IMG/VR virus record: IMGVR_UViG_3300033141_004453
Coordinates: 1 to 55,936 of that record
DNA from: a virus
Length of the DNA: 55,936 nucleotides
Direction: 5' to 3' (one strand)
The translations under genes were made by a program, and so were the position numbers. Below, in pieces: positions 13,984-35,330 of this stretch; position 1 is the stretch's first letter; the number at the start of each line of letters is the position of its first letter. The notes beneath the pieces were generated by a model that saw only the letters and a program-made list of their open reading frames with translations, was not told where the DNA came from and searched no databases.

Positions 13984-14766
13984 ATGAGTTGGGATGATTT
14001 AAAATCAAATAGCACAAAAAAACAAATAGTTGAACAAGTAGAAGATGTAAATATTGATTTTAAATCACTTCAAGAAATAGAGAAAAAACGAGGATACAAA
14101 ATAGGAATTTATGGAGATTTTGCCACAGGAAAAACTCATTTTGCACTAACTGCACCCGAACCTATTTTTATTATTGATACAGAAATGGGGGCAGCCCCCC
14201 TTTCTTTTAATTTTTTAAACAAGGATATTAAGGTATTAGATGTAGCAGAAAAAGATGGAGTGGAGAGTTATAAAAAAGTTGTAAAAGCAATTGAATTCAT
14301 AAGTGAGCAAGAGAAGATAGGAAGTGTGGTGATTGATAGTGTTAGTGATGTATGGGAATTTTGTCAGGAGTATGCAAAGGTAAAAATTTTCAATCTAAAA
14401 CCTTTAGATAGATTGAAACAACAATGGGATTGGGGTGTAATCAACAAATTATACTTGAAAATAATTTTAAAATTGTTGAAGTTAGATTGTAATTTGATTT
14501 TAACTGCAAGAGAGAATGAAATATATGCTAGTCCAGGACAACCTACAAATATGGTTAAACCAAAATGGCAAAAGAATACAGGTTTTTGGGTTGATTTTGT
14601 ATTGCATATGGGTAAAAGTCTAAACAAAAACAATGATGTAAACTTTTATATGGATATAGAGAAATCAAGACCCATAAGGAACATGATGGGAAAGAGATAT
14701 GAAAATATTGATTTTAATAAATTAATTGAAGAAATTGAAAAAAATAAAAATGATATTAAAAACTGA
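13984..14766 (+). CDS. Sak4-like RecA-fold recombinase ATPase
   Basis: A 260-residue RecA-fold ATPase. Walker A is GDFATGKT (44-51), followed by strand IFIIDTEMG, Walker B is VVIDSVSDVWE, and a later polar sensor is LILTAREN. It lacks RecA/RadA N-terminal and DNA-loop extensions, and its size matches the phage Sak4 or AAA_24 families used for single-strand annealing and recombination. Coupling to the RPA-like gene and location in the replication operon agree. A helicase-loader-like ATPase is the main alternative. Confidence 0.75.
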   Translation: MSWDDLKSNSTKKQIVEQVEDVNIDFKSLQEIEKKRGYKIGIYGDFATGKTHFALTAPEPIFIIDTEMGAAPLSFNFLNKDIKVLDVAEKDGVESYKKVVKAIEFISEQEKIGSVVIDSVSDVWEFCQEYAKVKIFNLKPLDRLKQQWDWGVINKLYLKIILKLLKLDCNLILTARENEIYASPGQPTNMVKPKWQKNTGFWVDFVLHMGKSLNKNNDVNFYMDIEKSRPIRNMMGKRYENIDFNKLIEEIEKNKNDIKN

Positions 14767-15181
14767 GATTGAATTTGATGCTGCACATAGATTAGTTGGT
14801 TACCAAGGAAAGTGCTCACAACTTCATGGTCATAGATGGAAAGTAGAAATAAAGGTTTATGGAAATGATGAAGACCTTGATGATATAGGAATTATGTGGG
14901 ATTTTACAAATAGGAAGTATATAAAAGATATGTTTGACCATAAAGTCATACTTTCTAATCATCCTGATAATTTAGAATTGATTGAGGGAATTAAAAAGAT
15001 ATGTGGTAAGGATAGTGTTTGTATTATGGAACAGAACCCCACTGCTGAAAATTTATGCATTAAAATTTTGGAAGAATTAGTAGAAGGGAATAATAAATTA
15101 TTTTATAAAGTAAAAGTTTATGAGTCACCTGTTTCATATTGTGAAATAGATAATTTTGGTGGTATTGAAAATGAAGATTAA
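14750..15181 (+). CDS. queD: QueD, 6-carboxytetrahydropterin synthase
   Basis: A 143-residue T-fold enzyme starting at ATG 14750, inside the end of the previous gene. Zinc ligands His13 (FDAAHR) and His26/His28 (LHGHRW), catalytic Cys22, the acidic FDHKV loop and the PTAEN motif are all present. QueD converts 7,8-dihydroneopterin triphosphate to 6-carboxy-5,6,7,8-tetrahydropterin, the second step to 7-deazaguanines. Its stop overlaps the QueE start, and FolE (step one) and DpdA lie in the same operon, which assigns it to viral DNA modification. Confidence 0.93.
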   Translation: MILKTEIEFDAAHRLVGYQGKCSQLHGHRWKVEIKVYGNDEDLDDIGIMWDFTNRKYIKDMFDHKVILSNHPDNLELIEGIKKICGKDSVCIMEQNPTAENLCIKILEELVEGNNKLFYKVKVYESPVSYCEIDNFGGIENED

Positions 15182-15830
15182 TGAAATATTTAGAAGTATT
15201 CAAGGAGAAAGTAGTTATGTTGGACTACCTTGTATATTCATAAGACTAACTGGTTGTAATTTGAGATGTAAGTATTGTGATACAACTTACGCCTATAATG
15301 AAGGGAAAGAGACGAGTGTGATAAAAATAGTAGAAGAAGTGACGAAGTTGTATAGAGAGGGAGATATTATTGAGATTACTGGTGGTGAACCACTACTCCA
15401 AAAAGAAGAGTTAAAAAATTTAATAGATGAGTTAGCATTAATATCTTCTACAATTTTAATTGAGACAAATGGAAGTATTGTGCTTCCAAAGAATGAAAGT
15501 TCAGATAACACGTGGGATTATGTAACCTGGATTATGGACTGGAAATTGGGTTCAAGTGAAGAGAGTGAAAAGATGGAAAGTATTAATTTAGATAGATTAA
15601 ATACAACTGATGAATTAAAGTTTGTGATTGGAAATAGTAGAGATTATGATGAGATGATAAGAGTATTAAAAAAATATAGACCTAATTGCAAGATTTTGGT
15701 ATCTACAGTTTGGGATAATGAAAATTTAAGGAAGGAAGTTGTGAGTAGGATGTTAAAGGATAATTTAAAGGCAAGATTTCAAGTTCAACTACATAAAATA
15801 GTTTGGGATAAAAATAAGAGGGGAGTATGA
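15171..15830 (+). CDS. queE: QueE, 7-carboxy-7-deazaguanine synthase
   Basis: A 219-residue radical-SAM enzyme. The 4Fe-4S motif is Cys29-x3-Cys33-x2-Cys36 (TGCNLRCKYCD), followed by the GGEP SAM-binding motif (ITGGEPLLQ) and the conserved N-terminal FRSIQGES. QueE ring-contracts 6-carboxytetrahydropterin to 7-carboxy-7-deazaguanine (CDG). The start at 15171 overlaps QueD by 11 bases. No QueC gene exists in the window, so QueE is the last recognisable synthesis step the virus encodes. Confidence 0.93.
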   Translation: MKINEIFRSIQGESSYVGLPCIFIRLTGCNLRCKYCDTTYAYNEGKETSVIKIVEEVTKLYREGDIIEITGGEPLLQKEELKNLIDELALISSTILIETNGSIVLPKNESSDNTWDYVTWIMDWKLGSSEESEKMESINLDRLNTTDELKFVIGNSRDYDEMIRVLKKYRPNCKILVSTVWDNENLRKEVVSRMLKDNLKARFQVQLHKIVWDKNKRGV

Positions 15831-16228
15831 AAAAAGAAAAAATTAGTTGGGAGAAATTTAATGAAGGAATAAACATATTAACAAAAAAAATTAAAAAATC
15901 AAAATTCAAAGCAAATGTAATTTTGGCTTTACCAAGAGGTGGCTTACCTATTGCAACTGCTCTTGCTCACAAACTAGGAATAGAGAGGATTGAAATTAAT
16001 GTAGAAGTATTAGATAACTCTGCAATATTTGATAAAACAATCAATACATCAAATGTTTTAATTGTTGATGATGTAAGTGATACAGGAACTACTATTTTAA
16101 AAAATTATCCTTCAAAACATGTATGTAAGATAGCAACACTACACTACAAACCAACATCAAGAGTTAGACCTGATTTTTTTGCTTACATAACAAATAATTG
16201 GATTCAATATCCTTGGGAGGTAAAATGA
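15827..16228 (+). CDS. Purine-type phosphoribosyltransferase
   Basis: A 133-residue type I PRTase. The PRPP-binding signature is VLIVDDVSDTGTT (~residues 75-87), and the earlier LALPRGGLPIA is the pyrophosphate loop. The size and the aromatic C-terminal WIQYPWEVK resemble xanthine/guanine (Gpt/Hpt-like) enzymes. It sits between QueE and PCNA, overlapping both neighbours by 4 bases. One idea is salvage of the guanine released when DpdA exchanges bases; this is inference. Confidence 0.8.
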   Translation: MKKEKISWEKFNEGINILTKKIKKSKFKANVILALPRGGLPIATALAHKLGIERIEINVEVLDNSAIFDKTINTSNVLIVDDVSDTGTTILKNYPSKHVCKIATLHYKPTSRVRPDFFAYITNNWIQYPWEVK

Positions 16229-16938
16229 TTAAGATAGCAAGCAAATTGCCACAATTCAAATTACTTATGAATATAATAAAAGATGTAAATACAGAAACAG
16301 ATTTTATTTTTTCAGCTAATGAACTACTTGTAAAAGTTATCAATTCTAGTTCTACTTCTATTGTTAGTGTTGTTTTGAATAAAAGTGGATTTGAAATTTA
16401 TCAAGTTGAGGAAGAACAAATTTTTACATTAAATACTGAATTAGTTTGTAAGATTTTAAGTAAGTTTGATAAAGAAGTTTGTATTGATTTTGAAGATGAG
16501 TGTATTAAATTTTATAATGGAAGGAAAGAGTATATGTTGAATTATTTTGTTGGAAAGAAAGATGAAAGACCATTACCTACAATTGACTACCAATCAAAAT
16601 GGATTGTAAAAAGTCAAGAATTAATTGATAAATTAAAAAGAATGAGTGATTTTGGTTATCTATGTTGTTTGGAGTATAAAGAAGGTAGATTTCTAATTAA
16701 GATAAAGTCAGATATAGTTAAGGGACAAGAAGAGTTTACAAATTGTAACAAAATAGAGAGTAGAGATGTTGCTGGATGGTATGATTTGAGTTATTTTGAA
16801 TGTTTATTTGGTTTATCAGATATCTTTGAAGAAGTAAAGTTAGGATTTGGTGATGAACAACCTTGTATTATCAAAAATAAAAATAGTTGGTTGGATTTTT
16901 GTTGGTTATTAGCACCAAGAGTGAGGGAAGATGAATGA
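16225..16938 (+). CDS. pcn: PCNA sliding clamp
   Basis: A 237-residue clamp with GGGAGGT directly before ATG 16225; an upstream in-frame ATG at 16198 lies inside the PRTase. It has a two-domain beta pattern and the typical archaeal ending (WLLAPRV near the C-terminus). PCNA encircles DNA and holds the polymerase, so it pairs with the family B polymerase 4 kb downstream. A virus-encoded clamp suggests a largely self-sufficient replisome. It overlaps FolE by 8 bases. Confidence 0.85.
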   Translation: MIKIASKLPQFKLLMNIIKDVNTETDFIFSANELLVKVINSSSTSIVSVVLNKSGFEIYQVEEEQIFTLNTELVCKILSKFDKEVCIDFEDECIKFYNGRKEYMLNYFVGKKDERPLPTIDYQSKWIVKSQELIDKLKRMSDFGYLCCLEYKEGRFLIKIKSDIVKGQEEFTNCNKIESRDVAGWYDLSYFECLFGLSDIFEEVKLGFGDEQPCIIKNKNSWLDFCWLLAPRVREDE

Positions 16939-17515
16939 CAAAAAAATAGAAAGTTTATGGAAAGAGATTTTAGAGTTAATTGGAGAAGATACAGAAAGAG
17001 AAGGAATAAAAGCAACTCCAAAAAGAATAGCAAGAATGTATAAAAATATTTTTTATGGATACAATAAAAAATTAGTTGTTATGAATGAAGAAGAAAGAAG
17101 TAAGAATAATGAGAAAGATATTATTCCAATCACAATATTCAAGAATGAAAATAAAGAGATGCTTATAAGAGATACTGTATTTACATCATTTTGTGAGCAT
17201 CACATTGTTCCGTTCTCAGGAAAAGCCTGGGTAGGAATAATACCAGATAAAAAATTGTTAGGTATGAATAAAATAGATAAGATTGTAAAATATTTTGCAG
17301 CAAGATTACAAATACAAGAAAGAATGACACAACAAATTGCAGACTGGATTTGGGAGAATATTGAACCATTAGGAATTATTGTTATTATTAGAGCAGACCA
17401 TTTCTGCGCAAGGTTACAGAATGACAATGGATGGTTTACTACCTCTGCTATAAAAGGAGTATTTAAGAAAAATGAACCAAAAAACGAATTTTTAAAATTA
17501 ATGGAGTTAAAATGA
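16931..17515 (+). CDS. folE: FolE, GTP cyclohydrolase I
   Basis: A 194-residue type I enzyme. N-terminal EDTEREGIKATPKRIARMY is the family signature. Zinc ligands Cys88 (CEHH, with His90/His91) and Cys159 (ADHFC) are present, as is QERMTQQIAD. It opens GTP to 7,8-dihydroneopterin triphosphate, the first step to tetrahydropterins and 7-deazaguanine. With QueD and QueE it completes the GTP-to-CDG route. It overlaps its neighbours by 4-8 bases, part of one transcript. Confidence 0.95.
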   Translation: MNDKKIESLWKEILELIGEDTEREGIKATPKRIARMYKNIFYGYNKKLVVMNEEERSKNNEKDIIPITIFKNENKEMLIRDTVFTSFCEHHIVPFSGKAWVGIIPDKKLLGMNKIDKIVKYFAARLQIQERMTQQIADWIWENIEPLGIIVIIRADHFCARLQNDNGWFTTSAIKGVFKKNEPKNEFLKLMELK

Positions 17516-17859
17516 ATATGATATGGATAACAACAAGTTTTGAAGGATTTCATAAATATCCAAATGCGCCAAAAGAAGTTGAGTTCTTAAAAAATAAACA
17601 CAGACATATTTTCTACATAAAGGTCTGGATAGAAGTATTTCATAATGATAGAGATATAGAATTTATTTTGTTTAAAAGATTTGTTGATACAATTATAAAA
17701 GATAGTAATTTTGATTTTGAGAGTTGTGAGATGATTAGTGATGATTTATATACCCTAATAAATGAAAAATATCCAAACAGAGAAATTTGGATTGAAGTTA
17801 GTGAAGATAAAGAAAACGGTTCATTTAAAAAATATGTGAAAGGAGGTGATATGAAATGA
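17512..17859 (+). CDS. QueD/PTPS-like T-fold protein without catalytic Cys
   Basis: A 115-residue protein. FEGFH (His14) and HRH (His30, His32) line up with the QueD zinc ligands His13, His26 and His28 encoded next door. SCEMISDDLYTLI and REIWIEVSE follow the QueD PTAEN helix and last strand. The position of the catalytic Cys, four before the first HxH His, is Leu26, so the usual chemistry is unlikely. It is coupled to FolE by a 4-base overlap. It may be a QueD-derived enzyme acting on a pterin or deazaguanine, or a partner subunit. The fold call is by eye. Confidence 0.5.
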   Translation: MNMIWITTSFEGFHKYPNAPKEVEFLKNKHRHIFYIKVWIEVFHNDRDIEFILFKRFVDTIIKDSNFDFESCEMISDDLYTLINEKYPNREIWIEVSEDKENGSFKKYVKGGDMK

Positions 17860-18089
17860 AAAATCCATGTAAAAAAGGAAGTAGAGCATTTGATATTTTT
17901 GAAAGTTTAATGACAGAAAAAACAATTCCTGAAGTGATAGATGAAATAGTAATGAAAAGAGAAACAGAAAAAAGAAGTAATATAGTTAATCAAGTAAATA
18001 CAATAATCAGAGAGCTTAAAAAAGGTAGATGGGAAGGATTAACATTAACTGAAAACAATGGCAGATATAAAATAACTGAGGTCAATTGA
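17856..18089 (+). CDS. Small HTH-like protein in modification operon
   Basis: A 77-residue protein starting behind AAAGGAGGTGAT, one of the strongest ribosome binding sites in the window. Helical segments (AFDIFESLMTEKTIPEVIDEI, cut as two helices, then NQVNTIIRELKKG) and a closing beta pair (LTLTENNGRYKIT) resemble a winged-helix arrangement, such as a DNA-sequence reader. It may guide the modification enzymes or regulate the operon. Its family is not recognised. Confidence 0.5.
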   Translation: MKNPCKKGSRAFDIFESLMTEKTIPEVIDEIVMKRETEKRSNIVNQVNTIIRELKKGRWEGLTLTENNGRYKITEVN

Positions 18090-18542
18090 ATGAAGTTAAC
18101 AAAGAGAGTTTGTAAATCATCAAATTTTTGGATTGGAAGAGAAGTAGAAGGTAGATTTAAAGGGCTAAGAACATTGTTTGTTAAAGGTAATCAAAATACA
18201 GACCAAATCAAAAATTTGATAGCTCAAGAATCTCCAAATATGTTATATTTTGGTGCAGGTAATCAAAGTAAAGTAACAGATTTTAATGTAATAAGAAATT
18301 TTTTAGAGAAACTACCTGTAACTTTGGAGATTTCAGAAAAAAGATTAAAGACACTTCCAGAAAATATTATTAAACATAAGAACTTACATTTAGTTATCAC
18401 ATTTAAAAATAAATATTTAACAAAATTAAAACCTACTGATAGTATTAAAGTAGAAGATAATAGTAGTGTTTATGTATCAACTTTAGAATGTATGTATAAA
18501 ACAAATAAAAAAACAGATTATAAGGAGGATAAAGAAATATGA
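18090..18542 (+). CDS. Unassigned modification-operon protein
   Basis: A 150-residue protein with alternating beta-alpha pattern (RTLFVKG, NMLYFGAG, VTLEISE, LHLVITF), as in half of a TIM barrel. The order and spacing recall the middle of QueE-type radical-SAM enzymes, but there is no CxxxCxxC motif. It starts directly at the previous stop and overlaps the glycosyltransferase by 4 bases. It may be a degenerate QueE-like partner or a new protein; both are weak inferences. Confidence 0.45.
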   Translation: MKLTKRVCKSSNFWIGREVEGRFKGLRTLFVKGNQNTDQIKNLIAQESPNMLYFGAGNQSKVTDFNVIRNFLEKLPVTLEISEKRLKTLPENIIKHKNLHLVITFKNKYLTKLKPTDSIKVEDNSSVYVSTLECMYKTNKKTDYKEDKEI

Positions 18543-19711
18543 AAACAATTTGGTACTTTCCATTAGAAATTGTAAAAAGTAGATATACTAAACAGTTATG
18601 TAACTACTGGATACCGGATGGTATAAATAAATGTAAACAACATAATGATAAATTTGAGATAATAAAAGGCCAAAGTATTGATACTAATATTAAAGTAGGT
18701 CAGGTCTTGGATGCGACAGGACGAGGTATTTATAGTTTAACACAAGTTTCTAATTTTTTAAAAAAAATTAGAGCAGGCGATGTAAAAGATGGTGATGTTC
18801 TATATATACAGGATTTTTGGACACCAGGAATTGAAGCGATATTTTATGCTGTTGATTTGTACAATATAAAATTACATATCTACTCAATGGTTCATGCCCA
18901 AAGTGTTGATAAATATGATTTTACATATCCAATGAGAAAATGGATGAGACCTATTGAACTGGGCTATGATAAAGCACATCAATATGGTGGATTATTTGTT
19001 GCTTCAAGTATTCATAAGAAACAACTACGCAGTGCAGGATTTACTTCACCTATTCATGTTGTTAGTTTGCCTTTTGGTATTGATGAAGTTAAAGAACGTA
19101 TTAAAAATATTCATAGAAATACAGAAAAAGCAATCATATTTTCATCAAGACTTGATAAAGAAAAAAATCCAGAGTTTATGCTTAAAGTTGCAAAAAAATT
19201 TCTTGATAAATATAAGGATTGGAAATTTTATGTTACAACTTCAGGAAAGGAAATCAGAAGTAATCAAAAAGGTATAATCAAAAAAATAAGAAATTTTTCT
19301 AAAAAAAATAAAAGATTTATAATCAAAGAAGGTATTTCAAAAAATGAATATTACAAACTTCTTTGTAAATGTAAGATACAACTTAATACCTCATTACAAG
19401 ATTATGTTAGTTGGACTGTAATTGAGGCAAGTATTTGTGAATGTGATTTATGTTATCCAAATTTTAGAAGTTTTCCTGAATTTATGCCAAAAGATAGAAT
19501 GTATAGACCCTGGAATGTTTCTGATGTGTTAAGAACAATAAAAGATTGTATAGATAATCCAAAACAACACAAATGGATAGCAGAGATTTCAGATTATGGA
19601 AGATTGAAGGAATGTAAAATCATATGTAATGGTAGTAAAAAAGAAATAAATATATGGAAAGAAAAAAATAGATTTATAAAGAAAAAATGCAATTTAAAAT
19701 CCCAAAATTAA
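18539..19711 (+). CDS. GT-B glycosyltransferase beside DpdA
   Basis: A 390-residue protein. The N-terminal half has IWYFPLE, DGDVLYIQDFWTPG and HAQSVDKYDFTYPM. The C-terminal half matches a GT4-like nucleotide-sugar domain with IIFSSRLDKEKNPEFMLK, ISKNEYYKLLCKCKI and a family-typical VIEASICE acceptor/nucleotide helix. Its 3' end overlaps DpdA by 25 bases, the largest overlap in the operon and a hint that both act together. A natural hypothesis is glycosylation of the deazaguanine base in DNA. Surface glycosylation is the alternative, since six other glycosyltransferases lie downstream. Confidence 0.72.
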   Translation: MKTIWYFPLEIVKSRYTKQLCNYWIPDGINKCKQHNDKFEIIKGQSIDTNIKVGQVLDATGRGIYSLTQVSNFLKKIRAGDVKDGDVLYIQDFWTPGIEAIFYAVDLYNIKLHIYSMVHAQSVDKYDFTYPMRKWMRPIELGYDKAHQYGGLFVASSIHKKQLRSAGFTSPIHVVSLPFGIDEVKERIKNIHRNTEKAIIFSSRLDKEKNPEFMLKVAKKFLDKYKDWKFYVTTSGKEIRSNQKGIIKKIRNFSKKNKRFIIKEGISKNEYYKLLCKCKIQLNTSLQDYVSWTVIEASICECDLCYPNFRSFPEFMPKDRMYRPWNVSDVLRTIKDCIDNPKQHKWIAEISDYGRLKECKIICNGSKKEINIWKEKNRFIKKKCNLKSQN

Positions 19712-20832
19712 AAAGTAGAAATATTCCTGTATGTAGTATAAGTATAGTAACTTCAGATACAAGTTGGTGGAGAAAATCATCACCATTTGTTTATCCAAAC
19801 TTGTTAGTGAATCTCATGGACTGTAATAAAAAAGAGCAGATAGATAAGATAAAAGAAGATACAGATAAGGACCTATTTTTATTAACAGATAGTGGTGGAT
19901 TTCAAGTTGGAGCAGGAACATGCTCATTAGACTGGAAAGAATCATTGTTAAGACAAATAAAAATTGGTGCAAGTAAAATATTTTCATTTGATACTCCAAC
20001 TATTAAAAAAAGGTCCACAACTACATTAGTTAATTTTACTTATATGGATAATGAAGAAGCATTTCATGTTATAGAAGAGAATTTAAAAGTTGCATTAAAA
20101 CAATCAGAGTTTTTAAAAACAAACTATCCTAATGAATTTGAAAAATTTTGTTACATTTTACATGGAAAATCTATGGAACAAATTGATTTTAACTTTACTT
20201 TATTTGATAAATACTTAGGAAGTATAGAAAACTATTCAAAATATTTTCCAGGAGGTATTGTTTATGGACTAAAGCAAGATGATTTGTTATATATGACAAT
20301 AGCAGCAAGACACGCATATGAAAATTTTATCAAAAAAGGAATTTATGTCCATTTTTTAGGTATGGGAAGTCCATTTAGAATGATATGTTTAATTAGAAAT
20401 AAAATAACAACATTTGATTCTTCAAGAGCCTTACAAGGAGTAAGAGCAAACCAGTTTGTTAATCCGTTTAATATATCTAACTTTATCCAATTTAAATCAG
20501 ATTGTAGTCAATTTACTAGAAATTTCTGTATGTGTCCAGCATGTTACAATATAAACTATGAAACCTTATTAAAACAAAAAGATATTCAAAAAATCAGACA
20601 AGCACTTGTAAATCATAATGTTTGGTGGTACACAATGATAAATATTTTTTTAGATGCTTTGTCAGAAAAAGAATATACTAAAATGGTATTAAAAAATCTC
20701 AAAGTAAGTAAAGAAACAATAAGAAGCCTTGAATTTTGTGACTATGCCGACCAAGTAGGATTTGATACTGCTTATAAAAAATATAAACACTATCTTAAAA
20801 AAGATGAAACTAAACAGAAAAAAATATTCTAA
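19687..20832 (+). CDS. dpdA: DpdA-type DNA guanine transglycosylase
   Basis: A 381-residue member of the TGT superfamily. The first catalytic Asp lies in TDSGGFQ (68-73 region), followed by FSFDTPT; the second is in TFDSSRALQG (~242); the zinc site is CMCPAC (280-285) with His in VNHNVWW. In viruses the family exchanges guanine in DNA for a 7-deazaguanine base. Its position with FolE, QueD and QueE in one operon supports a DNA rather than tRNA target. Without a viral QueC its substrate may be CDG or host-made preQ0. Confidence 0.87.
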   Translation: MQFKIPKLKSRNIPVCSISIVTSDTSWWRKSSPFVYPNLLVNLMDCNKKEQIDKIKEDTDKDLFLLTDSGGFQVGAGTCSLDWKESLLRQIKIGASKIFSFDTPTIKKRSTTTLVNFTYMDNEEAFHVIEENLKVALKQSEFLKTNYPNEFEKFCYILHGKSMEQIDFNFTLFDKYLGSIENYSKYFPGGIVYGLKQDDLLYMTIAARHAYENFIKKGIYVHFLGMGSPFRMICLIRNKITTFDSSRALQGVRANQFVNPFNISNFIQFKSDCSQFTRNFCMCPACYNINYETLLKQKDIQKIRQALVNHNVWWYTMINIFLDALSEKEYTKMVLKNLKVSKETIRSLEFCDYADQVGFDTAYKKYKHYLKKDETKQKKIF

Positions 20833-20841
20833 ATCATATAC

Positions 20842-23094
20842 ATGATAAAAGTAGAAAATAAAGGAAGTGATATATTTGAATTTGGTAGGCAAGGAAATGT
20901 TCCATACATCAAGAAACACAAATTTCAACCATATTTCTTCTATGAAGACACTACAGGCAATTTCAAAACTATAGATGGAAAGAATGCTACAAAACTTGTC
21001 TTAAAAAATCCAAAAGAAGTGCCAGTAGTAAGAGAACAATATAACAAGACATATGAAAGTGATATTGTTTATACAAATAGATTCATCATTGATAATTATA
21101 AAATTATAAAACAAGACAAAATAAGAATTTGTTATATAGATATTGAAATAGCAAGAACAAAGAATGGTTATGAATCAGCAGTAAAAGCTACAAATCCTAT
21201 ATTATGTATTGGGACTTATGATAATTTTGATAAAGAATACAAAACTTTTTGCATAAACAAAACTCATAGAGAAGAAAAAGAAATGATGAAAGATTTTATC
21301 AAATGGTTTGTTAAGAAAGACCCAGATTTAGTTGTTGCTTGGAATGGAGATAATTTTGATTTTCCCTTCCTTATAAATCGTATGAAGAACTTAGGATTAA
21401 ATCCCAATTTATTAGCACGACAAAGTAGTGAGTTTAGAGGTGAAGTTAAAATTGTTGGTGATAGAAATTTTATTAAGATAGAGGGAAGAGTAATGTTTGA
21501 TTTAATGTACGCTTATAGAAAAATGATAAGTGGTGAAGGAAGAGAAAGTTGGAGTTTAGATTATATATGTAAGTATGAAGGTGTTGGTCAAAAAGAGAAG
21601 TATAAAGGTGAATTAGATGATTTATTTAAGAATAATTTAGAGAAATTTATATCATATAATAAAAGAGATGTTGAACTACTAGTGTTGTTAGATGAAAAAT
21701 TACATATAGTTGATTTTTTTGATAGTGTTAGGAGGATGTGTTTTTGTCAGTTTGAGGATGTATTTATGAATAGTAAGATTGCAGATTGTCTTTGTCTAAA
21801 GAAAGCAAAGGAGTTAAATGTTGTACTACCAAGTTGCAAGAGAAATAAAAGAGAAAATATAAAAGGTGGATTTGTTCAAGATAGTGTTCCAAAATTATAT
21901 AAAAATGTAGTTTGTATGGATATGAAATCTTTGTATCCTTCAATAATGATTGGATTTAACACTTCATATGAAACAATACTTGAAAAGAAGGAAAAAAATT
22001 GTATAGATGTTTATGGAAAGTATTTTTATAAAAGAGAAAGAGGAATTATTCCATCTATTGTTAAACCTCTTTTAACAAAAAGAAACGAAATAAAGAAAAT
22101 CATGAAAAATATAGATAGAAATAGTAAGGAATTTAAATCACTTTACATGGAACAATATACTTTAAAAGTTATAGCAAATAGTTTTTATGGTGTTATGGGA
22201 TTTCCTTTGTTTAGATTGTTTAAAAGTGATGTTGCTAATTCAATTACCTTTATTGCAAGACAAATTATTATGGAAGTTAGTAAGTGGTTTAAAGAAAAAG
22301 GATTGAAAGTTATTTATGGCGACACAGATAGTGTATTTATTGAAATGGGAAATCTAACTAAAAATGATTTTGTAAAATTAAATCATGAAATCAATAATTA
22401 TTTTAAAGATTACTTCAAAAAATTTGGAGTTAGTGATGAGAACAATATCTTTCAGTTAGAGTTTGAAAAAGTGTTTAAAAGTATTTTTTTTAAGAAGAAA
22501 ACTGATGGAAAAGGAGCTAAAAAAAGATATGCAGGAAGAGTAATTTGGGAGAATGGAAAAGAAGTGGAAAAATTTATTACTGTTGGATTTGAAAGTAAAA
22601 GGTCTGATACATCAACAATTGGAAGAAAGTTTATAAGTGATGTTTTGAAAATGATTTGTTATGGTAGTAAAAAAAAGGAGATTGATAAATTTATAAGTGA
22701 ATTTAAAAAAGAACTAAAGAAACAAGCTATTGAAGATATTGCTATACCTATTGGAATTTCAAAACCTTTAGAGAATTATAAAAATGTTATTCATATCAGA
22801 GCCGCAAGAAATGCTAATAGATTACATAATGCACAGATACAATCTGGAGATAAAATTAAATATGTTTACATAATACATAAAGATATGAATGTTATAGCAT
22901 TTAAGAGTAGTAGTTGGATGTGGGATGGATATAAAATAGACTGGAAAATGATGGAAAAGAGAATTGTTGATATGAAAATTCAACCAATTTATGAAAGTTT
23001 AGGATGGAACTATCCTTGGGAAATATTTATGCCAACAAAAAAGAAAAAACAGATTAAATTTGAAGAGCAAATGAAACAAAAGTCGTTATGGTAG
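20842..23094 (+). CDS. polB: Family B DNA polymerase
   Basis: A 750-residue replicative polymerase. Exonuclease motifs are ExoI with DIE (~99), ExoII NGDNFDF (~168) and ExoIII YNKRD (~272). Polymerase motif A is DMKSLYPS (~360), motif B is KVIANSFYG and motif C is YGDTDS (~491-496), followed by the KKRY thumb motif. All key acidic residues are intact. The last residues QKSLW resemble a shortened PCNA-binding box, fitting the viral PCNA. It starts 10 bases after DpdA and overlaps the nuclease gene. Confidence 0.95.
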   Translation: MIKVENKGSDIFEFGRQGNVPYIKKHKFQPYFFYEDTTGNFKTIDGKNATKLVLKNPKEVPVVREQYNKTYESDIVYTNRFIIDNYKIIKQDKIRICYIDIEIARTKNGYESAVKATNPILCIGTYDNFDKEYKTFCINKTHREEKEMMKDFIKWFVKKDPDLVVAWNGDNFDFPFLINRMKNLGLNPNLLARQSSEFRGEVKIVGDRNFIKIEGRVMFDLMYAYRKMISGEGRESWSLDYICKYEGVGQKEKYKGELDDLFKNNLEKFISYNKRDVELLVLLDEKLHIVDFFDSVRRMCFCQFEDVFMNSKIADCLCLKKAKELNVVLPSCKRNKRENIKGGFVQDSVPKLYKNVVCMDMKSLYPSIMIGFNTSYETILEKKEKNCIDVYGKYFYKRERGIIPSIVKPLLTKRNEIKKIMKNIDRNSKEFKSLYMEQYTLKVIANSFYGVMGFPLFRLFKSDVANSITFIARQIIMEVSKWFKEKGLKVIYGDTDSVFIEMGNLTKNDFVKLNHEINNYFKDYFKKFGVSDENNIFQLEFEKVFKSIFFKKKTDGKGAKKRYAGRVIWENGKEVEKFITVGFESKRSDTSTIGRKFISDVLKMICYGSKKKEIDKFISEFKKELKKQAIEDIAIPIGISKPLENYKNVIHIRAARNANRLHNAQIQSGDKIKYVYIIHKDMNVIAFKSSSWMWDGYKIDWKMMEKRIVDMKIQPIYESLGWNYPWEIFMPTKKKKQIKFEEQMKQKSLW

Positions 23095-28463: not shown

Positions 28464-28760
28464 ATGAATGCTATAGATGAAAGAAGTTTTAATTTTAGAA
28501 AATCACCTTCCCTACAACATAAAGTTAGGGTCATAGTAGGAACACAAGAAAATCCAATATCATATGGAGTAACAATACCTGATTTTATTGCCAAACAATT
28601 TTCTGGCTGTTTGTTGAGAATTTATACATCTGGTACATCAATTATAATGGAAAGTGGTTGTAAGCTCACACCACATGATATAAATCTTGATAAGAAATTT
28701 TGTTTTGATGGAATGAGATTATATTCAGATACTAATGGTGATATAAAATGGATAAAATAA
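28464..28760 (+). CDS. AbrB-like protein at head of glycan island
   Basis: A 98-residue protein. VRVIVGTQENPISYGVTIPD and the following FSGCLLRIYTSGTSIIMES resemble the strand-helix-strand of swapped-hairpin (AbrB) regulators. A ribosome binding site (AGGAG) precedes. It overlaps the first glycosyltransferase by 13 bases and may be a regulator of the island; a structural role is possible. Confidence 0.45.
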   Translation: MNAIDERSFNFRKSPSLQHKVRVIVGTQENPISYGVTIPDFIAKQFSGCLLRIYTSGTSIIMESGCKLTPHDINLDKKFCFDGMRLYSDTNGDIKWIK

Positions 28761-29926
28761 AATTGTTATGGTTAAGTGATAGTCCTTTTACTTGTACAGG
28801 TTATGCAACAATTTCTCGTAATATTCTTAATAGACTTCAAGATATGGGATATGATTGTTATTATCAGGCTCATAATTTTTTTGGCCAAGATGTTCATAAT
28901 GCGAAATTTGGTGATGGAGAGGAGTTGAAATTTATAACATTGGGAACAGGTGTAAAACCTTATAGTGAAGATTTACTAGTTCCAAGAATTAGAGATTTGA
29001 AACCAGATATTTTTGGTGTACTGCTTGACACGTTCATGCTCTACCCGTGGTATATGAATTATGATTATGCTCCTGCCAAAACCTTATTTTACTTTCCATC
29101 TGACGGCGAAGGTGGTCTTCCTCTTAATTGCGAAAATATTTTAAGGAAGTGTAATTATCCAGTAGCTATGAGTAAATTTGCCCAGAACCAAGTTAAAACA
29201 AGTTACAATCTAAACACATCCTATATCCCACATGCTGTTGATACTTCTATTTTTTATCCTCTATCGTATAAAGAAAAGGAACGAATAAAAGAATCTTGGG
29301 GATTGAAGGGTAAGTTTATTGTTGGTAGTGTGTTTAGAAATCAAGGAAGAAAAATGGCAGATAGATTATTGAAAACATTTGCCATTTTTGCTAAAAAGCA
29401 TGAAGATGCTGTCCTATTTTTACACACTGATTTATTTGATAATGCCGCAGTTTTTGACTTAAGAGTACTTGTTTATAGATTGGGGATTATGAATAGAGTT
29501 GTATTTAGTGGAATGAGATTTTTTAGAGGTTTTGATTACAAAAAAATGAATGATGTGTATAATTTAATGGATGTGTTCTTTTTATCTACTTCAGGTGAAG
29601 GATTTGGAATACCAACTATAGAAGCAATGAGTTGTGGTATTCCATGTGTTGTGACAGATTACACTACAACAAAAGAATTATTAATAGATGATGGAAAATG
29701 TGGTGAAGCAGTACCAATAGTAAGTGAATTAACAGGAAGTTGGACAGTTGAAAGAGGAATTATGGATATTAACAAAGGTGTTGAAGCACTAGAAAAGTTG
29801 TATAATGATGAAAAATTAAGAAAGGAATATGGATTAAGAGGAAGAGAAAAGGTGTTGAAAAAATATGATTGGAATGTTGTAATTAAAGACTGGGACAAAT
29901 TATTAAGGAGGATTGTCAATGAGTAA
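28748..29926 (+). CDS. Family 4 glycosyltransferase
   Basis: A 392-residue GT-B enzyme. The N-terminus DSPFTCTGYATISRNI binds the acceptor, IPHAVDTSIFYP is the linker region, and the donor domain has GSVFRNQGRKMADRLL and FLSTSGEGFGIPTIEAMSCG, the E-x7-E nucleotide-sugar motif of GT4. It transfers a sugar from a nucleotide donor. It precedes a radical-SAM gene whose start overlaps its stop. Confidence 0.88.
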   Translation: MDKIKLLWLSDSPFTCTGYATISRNILNRLQDMGYDCYYQAHNFFGQDVHNAKFGDGEELKFITLGTGVKPYSEDLLVPRIRDLKPDIFGVLLDTFMLYPWYMNYDYAPAKTLFYFPSDGEGGLPLNCENILRKCNYPVAMSKFAQNQVKTSYNLNTSYIPHAVDTSIFYPLSYKEKERIKESWGLKGKFIVGSVFRNQGRKMADRLLKTFAIFAKKHEDAVLFLHTDLFDNAAVFDLRVLVYRLGIMNRVVFSGMRFFRGFDYKKMNDVYNLMDVFFLSTSGEGFGIPTIEAMSCGIPCVVTDYTTTKELLIDDGKCGEAVPIVSELTGSWTVERGIMDINKGVEALEKLYNDEKLRKEYGLRGREKVLKKYDWNVVIKDWDKLLRRIVNE

Positions 29927-31145
29927 GGTATTTTTAGTTAGTCCATCGGAAAAAGGAATTTTAGAAGATGCAGGAGATAGACCACCATTAGGTATAGCAT
30001 ATATTGGAGGATATTTAAGAGAAAATGGACATGATGTTAGGTTGTATGATATGAACCACATACATATTGATGAATTGGTGTTGGATGTTAAGGAAGAGAA
30101 GCCAGATGTTGTAGGTGTATCTCTATATACTTCTCCACTTTATTATAATGGGATGAATTTAGGTAAGGTTATAAAACAAGTTAATCCAGAAGTAAAGTTA
30201 GTCGCAGGCGGATATCATTCTACAGTTATGCCTGAGAGTACATTCCCTATTTTTAATCAAGTTGTTTTAGGTGAAGGAGAATATGCAATGGAAAAGATAG
30301 CAAGAGGAGATGAAAGTGAGATTGTTGTCGGTTCACTAGTAGATTTAGTATCACTACCAAAACCAGCAAGGGATTTACTACCAATGGAGAAGTATAACAT
30401 GATGCAAAAAGGTAAGAGAACAGCTACTGCTCTCACTTCAAGAGGTTGTCCTAATGCTTGTGCTTTTTGTGGAAATCTACCTTATAATAAGAAAGTTAGA
30501 TTTACACCTATTAACAAAATTACAAGTGAATTAGAAGAGTTGGTAGATTTAGGATATGAAGGAATTTATTTTTATGATGAGTTATTCACTGCTAATAAAG
30601 AAAGAGTAAAAAAACTAACAGATAGAATAAAAGGAATGGGATTAAGTTATAGAATTGCAACAAGAGCGGATAAGTTAGATAAGGATATTGCAAAATGGCT
30701 TGGTGATAGTGGATGTGAGATAGTAAGTTTAGGTATTGAGAGTGGTAATGATTATATATTAAGAAAGGTACGAAAGAGAATGACAACATCTCAAAATAAA
30801 GATGCTGTAAGGATGTTAGCAGAAGAAGGAATAGATGTAAAGGGGTTTTTCATAATAGGTCTGCCTGGCGAAAGTTATGAAACAGCAAGACAAACAATTG
30901 AGTTTGCAGAAGAATTAAAAAAAGAAGGTCTTACATTTGCTGATTTCTATCCACTTGTACCTTTTCCTGGAAGTCCTATTTTTAATAATCCTAAAAATTT
31001 CGGAATAAAAATCATTGACAAAAATTGGGGCAATTATTGTCAAGCAGGAGTTAGTGAAATTAAATCTGTAGTAGAAACAGAATACTTAAAAGCAAATGAA
31101 ATTAAATCATTAGTAGAGGAAGCAAAAAGTAGATGGAAAAGTTAG
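29919..31145 (+). CDS. B12-binding-type radical-SAM enzyme
   Basis: A 408-residue protein behind AAGGAGGATTGTC. The N-terminal ~130 residues form a cobalamin-binding-like Rossmann domain (PPLGIAYIGGYL, DVVGVSLYTS, LVAGGYHSTV). The core has SRGCPNACAFCG (Cys-x3-Cys-x2-Cys), then YFYDELF and a TIM-barrel end with FIIGLPGES. Members of this class methylate or rearrange carbon skeletons. In this setting a C-methylated or otherwise unusual sugar is a reasonable idea, not proven. Confidence 0.85.
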   Translation: MSKVFLVSPSEKGILEDAGDRPPLGIAYIGGYLRENGHDVRLYDMNHIHIDELVLDVKEEKPDVVGVSLYTSPLYYNGMNLGKVIKQVNPEVKLVAGGYHSTVMPESTFPIFNQVVLGEGEYAMEKIARGDESEIVVGSLVDLVSLPKPARDLLPMEKYNMMQKGKRTATALTSRGCPNACAFCGNLPYNKKVRFTPINKITSELEELVDLGYEGIYFYDELFTANKERVKKLTDRIKGMGLSYRIATRADKLDKDIAKWLGDSGCEIVSLGIESGNDYILRKVRKRMTTSQNKDAVRMLAEEGIDVKGFFIIGLPGESYETARQTIEFAEELKKEGLTFADFYPLVPFPGSPIFNNPKNFGIKIIDKNWGNYCQAGVSEIKSVVETEYLKANEIKSLVEEAKSRWKS

Positions 31146-32437
31146 TTGTAGTTATTATGGGACAAGATTGTGAGAAGTTTATAGGTATGTGTTTTGAAAG
31201 TGTTAAGAGTGCAGATGCTATTGTTTACTGTGATGGAGGAAGTACTGATAATACATTAAAAATTTTAAAACAAAAAAATTTTGAATTTGTTGAAATTGGT
31301 AAAGAAAACAATCATAACTTACTAATCATAAAAAACAAATATGACCAAAAGGATGTAAGAATGAATGGAAAACAAAGAAATTTTTATTTAAAATATTTAA
31401 AGGAGAATTATAAGGGCTGGTGGGCATTATGTTTAGATGCAGATGAAGTAGTAGAAGATTTATCTAAAATTAAATTTTTCATAAGTGTTCTTCCAAAGCA
31501 AAATCATGATATTTTATTTAGTGTGAAAATGAGACATTTTATAGGAAATTTAGGGCATGAAGATGCAACACAATCAATTCATTTTGTTCCACATAGATTA
31601 TTCAAAGTAAGAGATGACTTGGTTTATGATGAAGTAGAGCATCCAATTCTTTGGTTGAAAGATAAAGAAAAAACAAAAAATGCAAATGTTCAACCTACAG
31701 TAATTTGGCACCTTGCCTACCTTTCTGGAATGTGGGATATAAAAAAGAAATACAAAAACCATTTAATGAAATCAAATATACACACAAGAGAATTTTTGAT
31801 TAGTTGGAGAAATGCACACTTATTTGGACAATATCCAAGAAAACCTATAAACCCACTTGAAATTCCTGAAATAATTTTAAACAATTTTGGAATTGAAAAA
31901 GAAGAATTATACTGGAATCCAAGAATGCAAATAGAAACAAAACATTTTTTGATGGCAAAACAATGGACATCTAATTTACCAACAACAGCAAAAATATTAG
32001 ATGTAGGTTGTGGCGTAGGACATTATGGATATGTTTTAAAATCTTACTTAGGGTTGTATGAATATATAGGAATTGATAAAAGTAAATGGATAATTGAAAA
32101 TACACCATATAAAGATTTAGATATGAGATATATGGACATAACAAAAGGAATTGCTCTTCCTGATAGTGATTATGATTTGGTATTATGTATAGATGTATTA
32201 GAGCACCTTGAAGAAAAAGATTTAGATAAAACATTACAAATTATGTCTTTATTAGGAAAGAAATTTATCTTCTCAATTTGTTATGAAAATGACCCAAATT
32301 GGCCATTAGACCCTACACATAAAATAAAAGAAAGTAAAGAATGGTGGATTAACAAATTATTAAAGTATTTTGAAATTAAAGATGCACCAAGAAATTGGTT
32401 ATATTCAAATCAAATTTTGATAGGAGAGAAGAAATGA
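31133..32437 (+). CDS. GT2 glycosyltransferase-methyltransferase fusion
   Basis: A 434-residue two-domain enzyme. Residues 1-240 match GT2 (VVIMGQDCEKFIG, YCDGGSTDNT and CLDADEVVED, the DxD-like metal site). Residues ~280-434 form a class I SAM methyltransferase (ILDVGCGVGHYG, YIGIDKS and LVLCIDVLEHLEE). It may add and then O-methylate a sugar, typical for capping steps that end chain growth. The fusion is intact in one frame. Confidence 0.88.
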   Translation: MEKLVVVIMGQDCEKFIGMCFESVKSADAIVYCDGGSTDNTLKILKQKNFEFVEIGKENNHNLLIIKNKYDQKDVRMNGKQRNFYLKYLKENYKGWWALCLDADEVVEDLSKIKFFISVLPKQNHDILFSVKMRHFIGNLGHEDATQSIHFVPHRLFKVRDDLVYDEVEHPILWLKDKEKTKNANVQPTVIWHLAYLSGMWDIKKKYKNHLMKSNIHTREFLISWRNAHLFGQYPRKPINPLEIPEIILNNFGIEKEELYWNPRMQIETKHFLMAKQWTSNLPTTAKILDVGCGVGHYGYVLKSYLGLYEYIGIDKSKWIIENTPYKDLDMRYMDITKGIALPDSDYDLVLCIDVLEHLEEKDLDKTLQIMSLLGKKFIFSICYENDPNWPLDPTHKIKESKEWWINKLLKYFEIKDAPRNWLYSNQILIGEKK

Positions 32438-32586
32438 CAAGAGAAGATAATCCAAAAGCGGGTATTACAAAAAGAGAAATAAAAAAAGGGTCAACTGGAA
32501 TAATTTTGGAAGAGAAATATTTATCAGTGGAAGGAGAAAATTTATCAAAAGTTAAAAAAGTATTTGAGGAGGAATGGGAAAAATGA
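32434..32586 (+). CDS. Hypothetical 50-residue protein
   Basis: It starts at ATG 32434 behind GGAGAG; a frame start at 32395 lies inside the previous gene. Charged, with a beta part (GSTGIILEEKYLSVEG) and an acidic helical end. It ends as ATGA on the next gene. Unknown. Confidence 0.45.
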   Translation: MTREDNPKAGITKREIKKGSTGIILEEKYLSVEGENLSKVKKVFEEEWEK

Positions 32587-33281
32587 AATTAGCAGTTGGC
32601 TTAATCATAAAAAATGGAGAACAATTTGTTGATAAATGGATAAAATCAGCAGAAAGAATTGCTGATATATTTTTAATAGTAGATAATGGTTTAAAAGAGG
32701 GAGAAAGGAAGAGGCTTATGAATCATTCAAAAACAAAACAATACTTAATCCAAAAAAACATGGGAAGGAATCAAAGTAGAGACTATCAGAAAATTCTAGA
32801 GATGGCAAGGGAAGAAAATTGTGATTGGGTTTGGAATTTAGATATTGATGAATATGTTCCTGAAATTGATATCAACCAATTCAGATTTTACTTACTTAAT
32901 TGTGAAGATGAAAGTATTGGATTTCCATTATTTGAAATGAGGAATGATGACAAACACTACATAGCGGTAAAAGATACAGATGGAAAGTATAAACATGCAA
33001 GATTGTGCCATAAATGTTACAAAGTTTTGTCACATCTTGAATTTGATAGAAGAGATATACACGGAAAATCAATTCCTCATAACTGCAAAACAGGAAAAGC
33101 AATAAATGTCCTTATACAACATTTTGGCCATTATACAAAAGAATTAAGAGAAGAAAAAAGGAAACAATATGAAGGAACAAGTTTCAAGGACTTAAATGAA
33201 CAAAATGCTCCTTGGTTAGAAGAGGATGAAGACAAAATTATAATAAAAAGATGGGAGGATAGAGAATGGGAAAGAAAATAG
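32583..33281 (+). CDS. GT2-like glycosyltransferase
   Basis: A 232-residue protein. VGLIIKNGEQFVDKWIKS, FLIVDNGLKEG and WNLDIDEYVPE (the DxD metal motif) match the GT2 beta-glycosyltransferase A fold, while a His/Cys-rich region (ARLCHKCYKVL) follows. The start is 32583 (ATGA coupling); 32574 is possible with a closer GGAGG. It is smaller than full GT2 enzymes and has no membrane helix. Confidence 0.78.
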   Translation: MKLAVGLIIKNGEQFVDKWIKSAERIADIFLIVDNGLKEGERKRLMNHSKTKQYLIQKNMGRNQSRDYQKILEMAREENCDWVWNLDIDEYVPEIDINQFRFYLLNCEDESIGFPLFEMRNDDKHYIAVKDTDGKYKHARLCHKCYKVLSHLEFDRRDIHGKSIPHNCKTGKAINVLIQHFGHYTKELREEKRKQYEGTSFKDLNEQNAPWLEEDEDKIIIKRWEDREWERK

Positions 33282-34228
33282 TAGCATATATAAGAGGTGG
33301 ATTAGGAGATGTTTGGCCTGCTGTTTCAGCTATAAAATCAATAATGGACAGAGAGAAAATAAACAAACAGTATGTTTTTGTTTTAAGTGATAGTGTGTAT
33401 TATTTTAGAGATTATTCACAACAACTTTCAGAATACTCTATACAAATGCTTCATAAGCTAACCAATAACATAATAACAATCCCTCCTTGTTTAAATGATA
33501 ATTTTTGGTTAAGAAAGAATGGAAAAATTTTTGATGATACAACAAGTGAACTGTCACAAGAGGAAGCAGATAAATACATAAATGAATTTATGTTCTGGAG
33601 GCCAAACAAATTAAAAAACTTTGTAAGTAGATTTATAGATAAAAATACAATCTTTATTGATGCTTTATTTACTGAATGTATTGTAGTTTTAAAAGAGGGT
33701 AAGTTTGAAAGGATTGGAAATGAAAGAGCTGTTTTTGAGTTCAATCCTCCACAATTTGAAAAATCTATTTTGGATGGAATACTTGAGATAAGTTCATTAG
33801 TAATACATGTAAGAAAAAAGAATGAAGGTGATAGTTATAGAGAAAGTAGTGAATTCTATAACAAAATCATAAAATGGTGTAATGAAAATAACATAATGCC
33901 GATACTTATAGGAACAGATAAAGATAGATATGAAGGAAAGGCATATGATTTAAGAGGTAGTAATATCTTAAGTTTTGAAGGAATGGCTTATTTGATTGAT
34001 AAATGTAAAATTATGTTAGGCAACGATAGTGGATTTTCTGCAATCAAATTATATCAACAGCAAAAAGATAAATTGTTGATTATGAACTATCCAAGATGGG
34101 AAAGGAACAGCTGGTATTTTAGGCCATTTAACGGAAGTGAGAATGTAAAGAATTGTTTGTTACTGAATGCTAATGAAGATAATTTCATAAAGATAACTAA
34201 AACAATCAAAGAGTTTTATGGAAGATAA
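33266..34228 (+). CDS. GT9/heptosyltransferase-like protein
   Basis: A 320-residue GT-B-like protein. The N-terminal YIRGGLGDVWPAVSAIKSI is the GT9 acceptor loop, while YDLRGSNILSFEGMAYLI and KIMLGNDSGFSAIKL form the donor-site helix. GT9 enzymes transfer heptose or related sugars. It lies between a GT2 and a radical-SAM gene and overlaps both, which supports a common pathway. Confidence 0.72.
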   Translation: MGKKIVAYIRGGLGDVWPAVSAIKSIMDREKINKQYVFVLSDSVYYFRDYSQQLSEYSIQMLHKLTNNIITIPPCLNDNFWLRKNGKIFDDTTSELSQEEADKYINEFMFWRPNKLKNFVSRFIDKNTIFIDALFTECIVVLKEGKFERIGNERAVFEFNPPQFEKSILDGILEISSLVIHVRKKNEGDSYRESSEFYNKIIKWCNENNIMPILIGTDKDRYEGKAYDLRGSNILSFEGMAYLIDKCKIMLGNDSGFSAIKLYQQQKDKLLIMNYPRWERNSWYFRPFNGSENVKNCLLLNANEDNFIKITKTIKEFYGR

Positions 34229-35330
34229 AAGACAGATGGACGGAACAAAAGCCCTATGGCATATGGATAGAATTATCCAACATTATGATAGAGGTGAAAG
34301 GATTCCCCCTGTTCATATTGATTGGGGGCTAACTAAAATTTGTAATATTGATTGTATTTATTGTTATGGTAAGTATCAAAGTTCTGCTATTGGTCAACAT
34401 GGGATTAATGCTATATTTCAAAAAGATGCACTATTAAGTGCTCTTAGAGAAGCAGGAAAAGAAGGAGTAAGAAGTGTAGCATTTATAGGTGATGGTGAGC
34501 CAACTTGTAATCCTGCTTGGAAAGAAGCAATGTATGTTGGAAAAAATAGTGGTTTAGATTTAGCAATATCCACGAATGGAGTGTTAGTTGATAATGATGA
34601 AGCAAGACGAGCAATTTTGGATAATGCAACTTGGATGAGATTTTGTTTATCTGCTGGAACAAGAGAGGGTTACAAAAAAATTCACAGAAGAGATAAATTT
34701 GATGTTGTTGTGAAAAATATTGAACAGTTAGTTAATATGAGAGATAGATACAATTATAAAACAGATATTGGGTTACAATCTGTTTTTGTTCCTACTTTAA
34801 TGGCAGAGGAGATGGTTAAAGAAAGTGAATTAGCAAGAAAAATAGGTGTTGATTATTTTGTAATTAAACAATGTTCATTACCTGATGAAGGACAATCTGG
34901 AATGATGCAGTTTGATTTAAAAGATTATGATAAACCACATATAATTGATACACTAAAAAAATGTGAGGAGATGTCCAATGATAGAACAAAAATTGTTGTA
35001 AAGTGGCAGGCTATAAAAGGAAAAGGTAAGAAGAATTATTCTGGATGTTTAGCAGTTCCTCTAATTAGTGAAATAAGTGGAAATGGTGATTGGTATCCTG
35101 GCGGTTGTATGTTTGGTAATAAGATGTATGATAATTTAAAATTTGGAAACCTACACGAAAAAGGGTTTTCAGAAATTCTAAATTCAGAGAGGTATTGGAG
35201 TATCATACGACAGATGAAAGATTATGATGTTAGAAATAGTCCTGCATGTAGGGGTGCTTGCAGATTAGACCCTGTGAATCAGTTTGTATATAAGTATTTA
35301 AATAAACCAAAAGGTATTAATTTTATATAA
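34218..35330 (+). CDS. SPASM-type radical-SAM enzyme
   Basis: A 370-residue enzyme. The Fe-S motif CNIDCIYCYG (Cys-x3-Cys-x2-Cys) is followed by FIGDGEP. The C-terminal ~90 residues carry several Cys (GGCMFGN, ACRGACRLD) and FGNLHEKGFSEIL, the SPASM-like auxiliary cluster. Such enzymes modify peptides or sugars. Here it directly precedes the transketolase pair (stop and start overlap by one base), suggesting a sugar-precursor step. Confidence 0.85.
   Translation: MEDKRQMDGTKALWHMDRIIQHYDRGERIPPVHIDWGLTKICNIDCIYCYGKYQSSAIGQHGINAIFQKDALLSALREAGKEGVRSVAFIGDGEPTCNPAWKEAMYVGKNSGLDLAISTNGVLVDNDEARRAILDNATWMRFCLSAGTREGYKKIHRRDKFDVVVKNIEQLVNMRDRYNYKTDIGLQSVFVPTLMAEEMVKESELARKIGVDYFVIKQCSLPDEGQSGMMQFDLKDYDKPHIIDTLKKCEEMSNDRTKIVVKWQAIKGKGKKNYSGCLAVPLISEISGNGDWYPGGCMFGNKMYDNLKFGNLHEKGFSEILNSERYWSIIRQMKDYDVRNSPACRGACRLDPVNQFVYKYLNKPKGINFI

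Follow-up and report, generated by a model that had tools for sequence, protein, structure and literature searches.

What becomes of 7-carboxy-7-deazaguanine (CDG) in a virus that encodes the enzymes of its synthesis and lacks QueC, the synthase of preQ0 (7-cyano-7-deazaguanine)? This question is raised by the IMG/VR record IMGVR_UViG_3300033141_004453, a single linear contig of 55,936 bases that was analysed as a whole and is called the window throughout. Positions 14,750-20,832 of its + strand encode, in this order, QueD, QueE, a phosphoribosyltransferase (PRT), the sliding clamp PCNA, FolE, three open reading frames (ORFs) of 115, 77 and 150 amino acids (aa), a GT-B glycosyltransferase (GT) and a DpdA that resembles tRNA-guanine transglycosylases (TGT). 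Enzymes of the FolE, QueD and QueE families convert GTP to CDG, and this set is complete in the window. Searches of the whole record with the QueC (PF06508) and QueF (PF14489) profiles gave no match; ArcS and stand-alone amidotransferases were not the object of an aimed search. DpdA enzymes swap guanine in DNA (PMC6884629). An earlier note on this DNA had reported the lack of QueC and offered three outcomes, namely that DpdA inserts CDG itself, that preQ0 comes from a host QueC, or that an unassigned gene of the operon acts on CDG or on CDG-bearing DNA. Our analysis gives the best support to the last of these; the likely actor is the 115-aa product, which has the fold of QueD (the QueD-fold protein), together with the 150-aa protein (o150) and the GT. 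The evidence comes from a gene exchange in a related virus and from the mutual exclusion of QueC and the QueD-fold gene in phages.

Exchange of QueC for a cassette

A search of IMG/VR with the capsid protein returned 52 relatives of the window virus. One of them, G023 (IMGVR_UViG_3300017971_003303; 62,886 bases), has a major capsid protein 82% identical to that of the window, and its operon reads QueD-QueE-PRT-PCNA-FolE-QueC-(213 aa)-DpdA-PolB, where PolB is the family B DNA polymerase; the counterpart in the window reads QueD-QueE-PRT-PCNA-FolE-(QueD-fold, 77 aa, o150, GT)-DpdA-PolB. The genes common to both are about 35-64% identical (QueD 52%, PRT 53%, FolE 64%, PolB 60%, and DpdA 47-48% over the shorter protein). 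The QueC that G023 encodes is canonical, scoring 212 bits against TIGR00364 (cut-off, 150 bits). No QueD-fold gene exists anywhere in the G023 record, and neither o150 nor a GT of the window's family occurs in the portion that was read, 54.5 kb. Since G023 holds QueC exactly where the window holds the cassette, the absence of QueC from the window, already reported in the earlier note, is neither a gap in the record nor a gap in the annotation; the cassette is exchanged at CDG, the branch point of the pathway. Of the 17 larger capsid relatives that were searched, most are fragments of less than 30 kb, so that the absence of the module from them is uninformative. The 213-aa ORF between QueC and DpdA in G023 (L170:8905-9546) has a weak sulfotransferase match, and its product may act on the QueC-derived base.

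The QueD-fold family (phrog_17812) is present in 27 records of the phage collection, and its gene adjoins FolE, QueD or QueE, without QueC, in Cellulophaga phiST, Acidovorax ACP17, Xanthomonas X1, Rhizobium RHph_I1_18, Synechococcus BUCT-ZZ01 and Sinorhizobium Phosso. Twelve phage records that hold the family were each searched as a whole, and none yielded a canonical QueC. Control records without the QueD-fold gene (11 with QueE and two with a TGT-like protein) matched QueC in 13 of 13 cases, one of them only partially, and the QueD-fold gene in 0 of 13. By Fisher's exact test the value is 2e-7, and 3e-6 when the record D479 is counted as QueC-bearing. Because the controls were chosen by hand and some of the phages are related to one another, the figure is to be taken as an indication of strength and not as an exact probability. 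QueC and the QueD-fold family are mutually exclusive, and the QueD-fold gene takes the place of QueC in CDG-making viruses. This exclusion, together with QueC at the cassette position in G023, identifies the replacement of QueC by the QueD-fold, 77-aa, o150 and GT genes as a cassette swap within one viral lineage.

Several QueC-like matches deserve separate mention. That of Xanthomonas X1 is a NAD synthase, and that of D479 is partial (25.8 bits against a cut-off of 150), lies beside a nicotinamide phosphoribosyltransferase and is not a canonical QueC. Among the IMG/VR records with the QueD-fold family, two of 21 (G006 and G014) give weak PF06508 matches.

The cassette proteins and DpdA

The AlphaFold2 model of the QueD-fold protein (predicted local distance difference test score, pLDDT, 93) is a T-fold, whose best PDB matches are E. 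coli QueD and Pyrococcus PTPS (Foldseek 5e-4; Z 12.1). Its invariant His 14, 30 and 32 correspond to the zinc ligands of QueD, and Glu98 is invariant as well (alignments A1 and A4). The catalytic Cys and the Asp-His of QueD, which the real QueD of the window keeps (H13, C22, H26, H28 and D63-H64, read from its sequence), are absent from the family in the same alignments, and R47, E50 and S71-C72-E73 are invariant in their stead. Because the zinc triad and the Glu are kept while the Cys and the Asp-His are gone, the protein as modelled should hold a guanine-like ligand near zinc and yet do chemistry unlike that of QueD; it is likely the enzyme that acts on CDG. Cui et al. in 2023 (NAR 51:9214, a reference listed in PMC13329287) reportedly described the deoxynucleosides of 7-deazaguanine and CDG (dDG and dCDG) in viral DNA, with DpdL as the predicted CDG decarboxylase. 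We tentatively equate phrog_17812 with DpdL; its distribution among phages fits that prediction. Sequence searches of the PDB with the o150 and QueD-fold profiles returned only weak, unrelated matches.

The family varies in form and setting. Its domain is preceded by fused N-terminal extensions in Vibrio phage Bakedbeans (L009:11182-12363) and Chryseobacterium phage MA9V-3 (L011:11434-12318). In Faecalibacterium phage Roos (L012:13195-13866) the gene lies near that of a membrane protein resembling, by eye, a queuosine-precursor transporter of the YhhQ type, and QueC and QueD were not found. The member closest to that of the window (72% identical) is encoded by a 224-kb IMG/VR contig of a large virus (L015:1-13270), with a GT gene beside it and genes for two proteins that resemble DpdA by eye; QueC was not found. 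QueD-fold phages without the GT (L001:12792-13571 in phiST, and a cluster of eight loci) carry a protein of 259-290 aa, DpdA-like by eye (HFLGAG), and this short protein is a possible separate subfamily of DpdA.

The GT family is present in 20 of 50,697 phage records, all 20 of which have a 7-deazaguanine pathway. The QueD-fold gene, which the GT usually adjoins in phages, accompanies it in 16, and the other four (PhiXhv-12, PhiXhv-15, PhiXhv-16 and Ep032) form one related group with Gat-QueC. For o150 there are 13 phage records, each with both the QueD-fold gene and the GT. Profiles seeded from the window and searched around the QueD-fold gene in 92 IMG/VR and phage loci matched GT in 82, o150 in 72, DpdA in 70, FolE in 68, QueE in 46 and PRT in 35, counts that speak for conservation and come from loci many of which end at contig edges. 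Since the GT is found strictly with 7-deazaguanine pathways, its linkage suggests a glycosylated 7-deazaguanine in viral DNA. In the Xanthomonas phage PhiXhv-16, which was read in detail, the GT homologue, a PIG-L (N-acetylglucosamine) deacetylase and Gat-QueC stand in a row (L115:6856-10090; positions 106855-110089 of the record), and this adjacency suggests an amino-sugar-bearing 7-deazaguanine in that phage; in Ep032, Gat-QueC is near the GT. Other module loci contain epimerase, DegT-type, zinc alcohol dehydrogenase and Gfo/Idh genes, as are common in sugar metabolism.

The fairly confident AlphaFold2 model of o150 (pLDDT 86) has the QueE of three species among its closest structures, over about 120 residues (Z 5.0-6.0), and unrelated STAS domains score equally. 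The CxxxCxxC of radical S-adenosylmethionine (SAM) enzymes is missing from its alignment A3, and hhalign to QueE, at 5%, does not support homology at the profile level; the weak resemblance to QueE is a structural lead only. The true QueE of the window has this motif (Cys 31/35/38) and an alternative start, TTG, at 15165.

The scores of the window's DpdA for the archaeal and general TGT families of NCBIfam fall under the curated cut-offs. Pfam TGT does not match this protein, which is too divergent; the known DpdA of phage 9g likewise escapes Pfam TGT, so that the miss is uninformative. The TGT motifs D68-SGGFQ, FDTP, D102, HFLGMG (for HFLGxG), FDSS and CxCxxC...HN are kept, with D244 (in FDSS) as the presumed nucleophile and C281/C283/C286/H310 as the zinc set expected from the motif. 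A PUA domain was not found in it with Pfam. DpdA4 is the DpdA subfamily of archaeal viruses. Single-protein scans of IMG/VR gave no close relatives of DpdA, PolB or GT, and the DpdA and GT profiles matched no sequence in the PDB.

Proposed pathway and competing explanations

We propose a QueC-free branch of viral 7-deazaguanine DNA modification, in which CDG would never become preQ0. FolE, QueD and QueE would convert GTP to CDG, whose carboxylate would most likely be removed by the zinc T-fold protein (probably of the DpdL family) to give 7-deazaguanine. After replication, DpdA would put this new base in the place of guanine in viral DNA, a role that fits the operon it shares with PCNA and PolB; the PRT may, speculatively, recycle the guanine so freed. 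The GT of the cassette, with o150, would probably put a sugar on the modified base, as their strict co-occurrence with the pathway indicates, and the resulting DNA would withstand restriction by the host or attack by other nucleases. We consider this explanation, taken as a whole, somewhat more probable than not. A more specific version is tentative and rather doubtful: the QueD-fold protein would strip CDG of its carboxylate and thereby free C7, and GT and o150 would attach a sugar to the base, perhaps in a C-glycosidic linkage, either ahead of insertion by DpdA or following it, in a scheme shared by such large bacterial phages as PA5oct, ACP17 and BUCT-ZZ01.

It is important to note the points that weigh against this proposal. 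Loss of the carboxylate would leave the GT without an obvious acceptor for its sugar. The decarboxylation step leans on what Cui et al. 2023 reportedly predicted and on the putative identity of phrog_17812 with DpdL. Besides its scores under the curated cut-offs, the choice of DpdA between DNA and RNA as substrate is beyond proof from sequence. The 13 controls were picked by hand from QueE and TGT hits, and QueC was already annotated in some of them. A DNA polymerase is shared by 69 of the 92 loci, which mostly represent one phage lineage, so that their counts show conservation and not repeated separate acquisition; the independent cases are those of the phage collection. Finally, a linear contig may be incomplete, which leaves the absence of QueC from the rest of the genome unproven, a minor concern because the QueC of G023 sits inside the same operon.

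Of the other explanations, one concerns the sugar alone: GT and o150 may act on a protein or a glycan and be merely carried with the module. Other glycosyltransferase genes and sugar genes lie at 28-41 kb of the window, related loci also carry sugar-metabolism genes, and 7-deazaguanine has no established sugar acceptor; the restriction of the GT family to phages with the pathway, usually beside the QueD-fold gene, and the run of genes in PhiXhv-16 speak for a role on the base, and we regard an action away from DNA as possible, if on the unlikely side. Direct insertion of CDG by DpdA would place dCDG in the DNA and would leave the QueD-fold protein to carry or protect CDG, while the GT might esterify the carboxylate, a simple acceptor. 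The encoded synthesis does stop at CDG, and the possibility that CDG serves as a DNA base has been raised for the QueC-less phage Bipper (PMC6884629), but in unrelated phages QueC is replaced by a gene whose product conserves a putative zinc site, which suggests that a catalysed reaction follows CDG, and we find direct insertion unlikely.

A supply of preQ0 by a host QueC, with DpdA inserting preQ0 and the cassette genes acting elsewhere, has parallels in HRTV-29 and other DpdA-only viruses, which are thought to use host preQ0 (PMC8651126), and QueC is present in archaeal control genomes. The virus's own FolE, QueD and QueE would, however, be needless, G023 encodes QueC in this very operon, and across lineages the loss of QueC coincides with the gain of the QueD-fold gene; this second outcome of the earlier note is therefore disfavoured, and we consider it quite improbable. 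Still further from our expectation, and scarcely credible, is a role in raising 7-deazaguanine for tRNA modification (archaeosine). The best NCBIfam match of the transglycosylase is indeed archaeal TGT, yet archaeosine needs preQ0 and QueC is missing, Pfam detects no PUA domain, and the operon is shared with PCNA and PolB. The QueC-free branch that we propose would explain the missing step by a clean cassette swap in one viral lineage, and it makes the fate of CDG directly testable: the window virus and G023 have orthologous DpdA enzymes, and the base carried should differ between the cassette-bearing virus and the QueC-bearing one.

The locus in its genome and among known systems

The features of the operon are collected in Table 1. 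From the gene upstream of QueD (which ends at 14766) through DpdA, each gene either abuts the next or overlaps it by 4-25 nt; PolB starts 9 nt past the end of DpdA. These junctions, with the profile matches and motifs, confirm that FolE, QueD, QueE and DpdA form one coupled operon with PCNA and a polymerase, as the earlier note had it; its naming of the four enzymes stands, while the QueD-fold ORF, o150, GT and PRT had been left without assignment. The PRT recurs in related modules and in the QueC-bearing G023.

Table 1. Genes of the operon and the matches that support their assignment
Feature	Position	Strand	Evidence
QueD (6-carboxy-tetrahydropterin synthase)	14750..15181	+	Pfam PTPS 2.5e-24; TIGR03367 4.4e-21
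QueE (CDG synthase)	15171..15830	+	phrog_2076 4e-40; TIGR04349 6e-55
PRT, xanthine/guanine PRT-like	15827..16228	+	Pfam Pribosyltran 2.7e-13; PRK09177 7e-14
Archaeal-type sliding clamp PCNA, a replication gene amid the pathway genes	16225..16938	+	PCNA_N 9e-6; PRK01115 5e-16
FolE (GTP cyclohydrolase I)	16931..17515	+	Pfam 2e-49
QueD-fold (T-fold) protein, 115 aa, phrog_17812	17512..17859	+	phrog_17812 7.5e-27
77-aa ORF in cassette	17856..18089	+	phrog_17463 2e-4
o150, 150 aa, conserved small module protein	18090..18542	+	family alignment A3
GT-B glycosyltransferase	18539..19711	+	Pfam Glycos_transf_1 3.4e-6, 27.1 bits (cut-off 26.4)
DpdA-type DNA-guanine transglycosylase, 381 aa	19687..20832	+	TIGR00432 (arcTGT) 2.4e-6; TIGR00449 (tgt_general) 2e-4
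PolB (family B DNA polymerase), next operon gene	20842..23094	+	Pfam DNA_pol_B 1.8e-56

The archaeal-type PCNA, the PolB and a D5-like helicase suggest that the window belongs to an archaeal tailed virus. The QueD-fold gene is also present in two contigs that were binned as archaeal (L099, Nitrosarchaeum bin; L101, Euryarchaeota bin), but both read as bacteriophage-like and so give no identity of the host. Between the replication and structural genes of the window lies a block (28748-40993), mostly kept in G023, of glycosyltransferases, a B12-radical SAM protein, other radical SAM proteins, a two-part transketolase (35330-36058 and 36333-36803) and a NAD epimerase. In alignment A8, which covers the QueD of phages L001, L002, L006, L014, L046, L065 and L084, many sequences lack the first zinc His, reading FRQW or YRQW in place of the window's AHRL, and nonetheless sit in CDG-making gene sets.

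Our results link the GT and the uncharacterised o150 to 7-deazaguanine DNA modification. If the proposal is correct, a sugar-bearing guanine joins the known DNA hypermodifications, and such an unusual base could shield the virus from host nucleases; the PA5oct/Paride group, ACP17, X1, Phosso and BUCT-ZZ01 are cultured phages in which to look for it. The pathway of DpdL, dDG and dCDG reportedly described by Cui et al. is QueC-less like that of the window and has a predicted CDG decarboxylase, the putative counterpart of phrog_17812, in a gene set of the phiST type. Cellulophaga phiST itself differs from the window in lacking the GT and o150 and in its shorter DpdA-like protein. The suggestion of a new variant in the earlier note is partly right: QueC-less viruses such as Mycobacterium phage Bipper were already noted in 2019 (PMC6884629), and Cui et al. 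reportedly described dCDG, dDG and DpdL in 2023, so that novelty lies in the GT/o150 cassette and in its exchange with QueC, of which we found no description; nor did we find a paper on glycosylated 7-deazaguanine in DNA, in a search that left most subscription literature outside.

The modification systems of phage 9g, CAjan and HVTV-1 (Hutinet et al. 2019, PMC6884629) encode FolE, QueD, QueE and DpdA together as the window does, whereas the window has the QueD-fold protein, o150 and the GT instead of QueC. Closer in content are the modules of Pseudomonas PA5oct, ACP17, X1, Phosso and BUCT-ZZ01, which share with the window the QueD-fold gene, the same GT family, QueE and the lack of canonical QueC; BUCT-ZZ01 and PA5oct have the PRT too, and among these modules o150 occurs only in ACP17 and the PA5oct group. 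They differ in belonging to bacterial phages and in a DpdA that, where recognised, is larger and different. G023 has the same operon and an orthologous DpdA, with canonical QueC and the 213-aa ORF at the position where the window carries its cassette.

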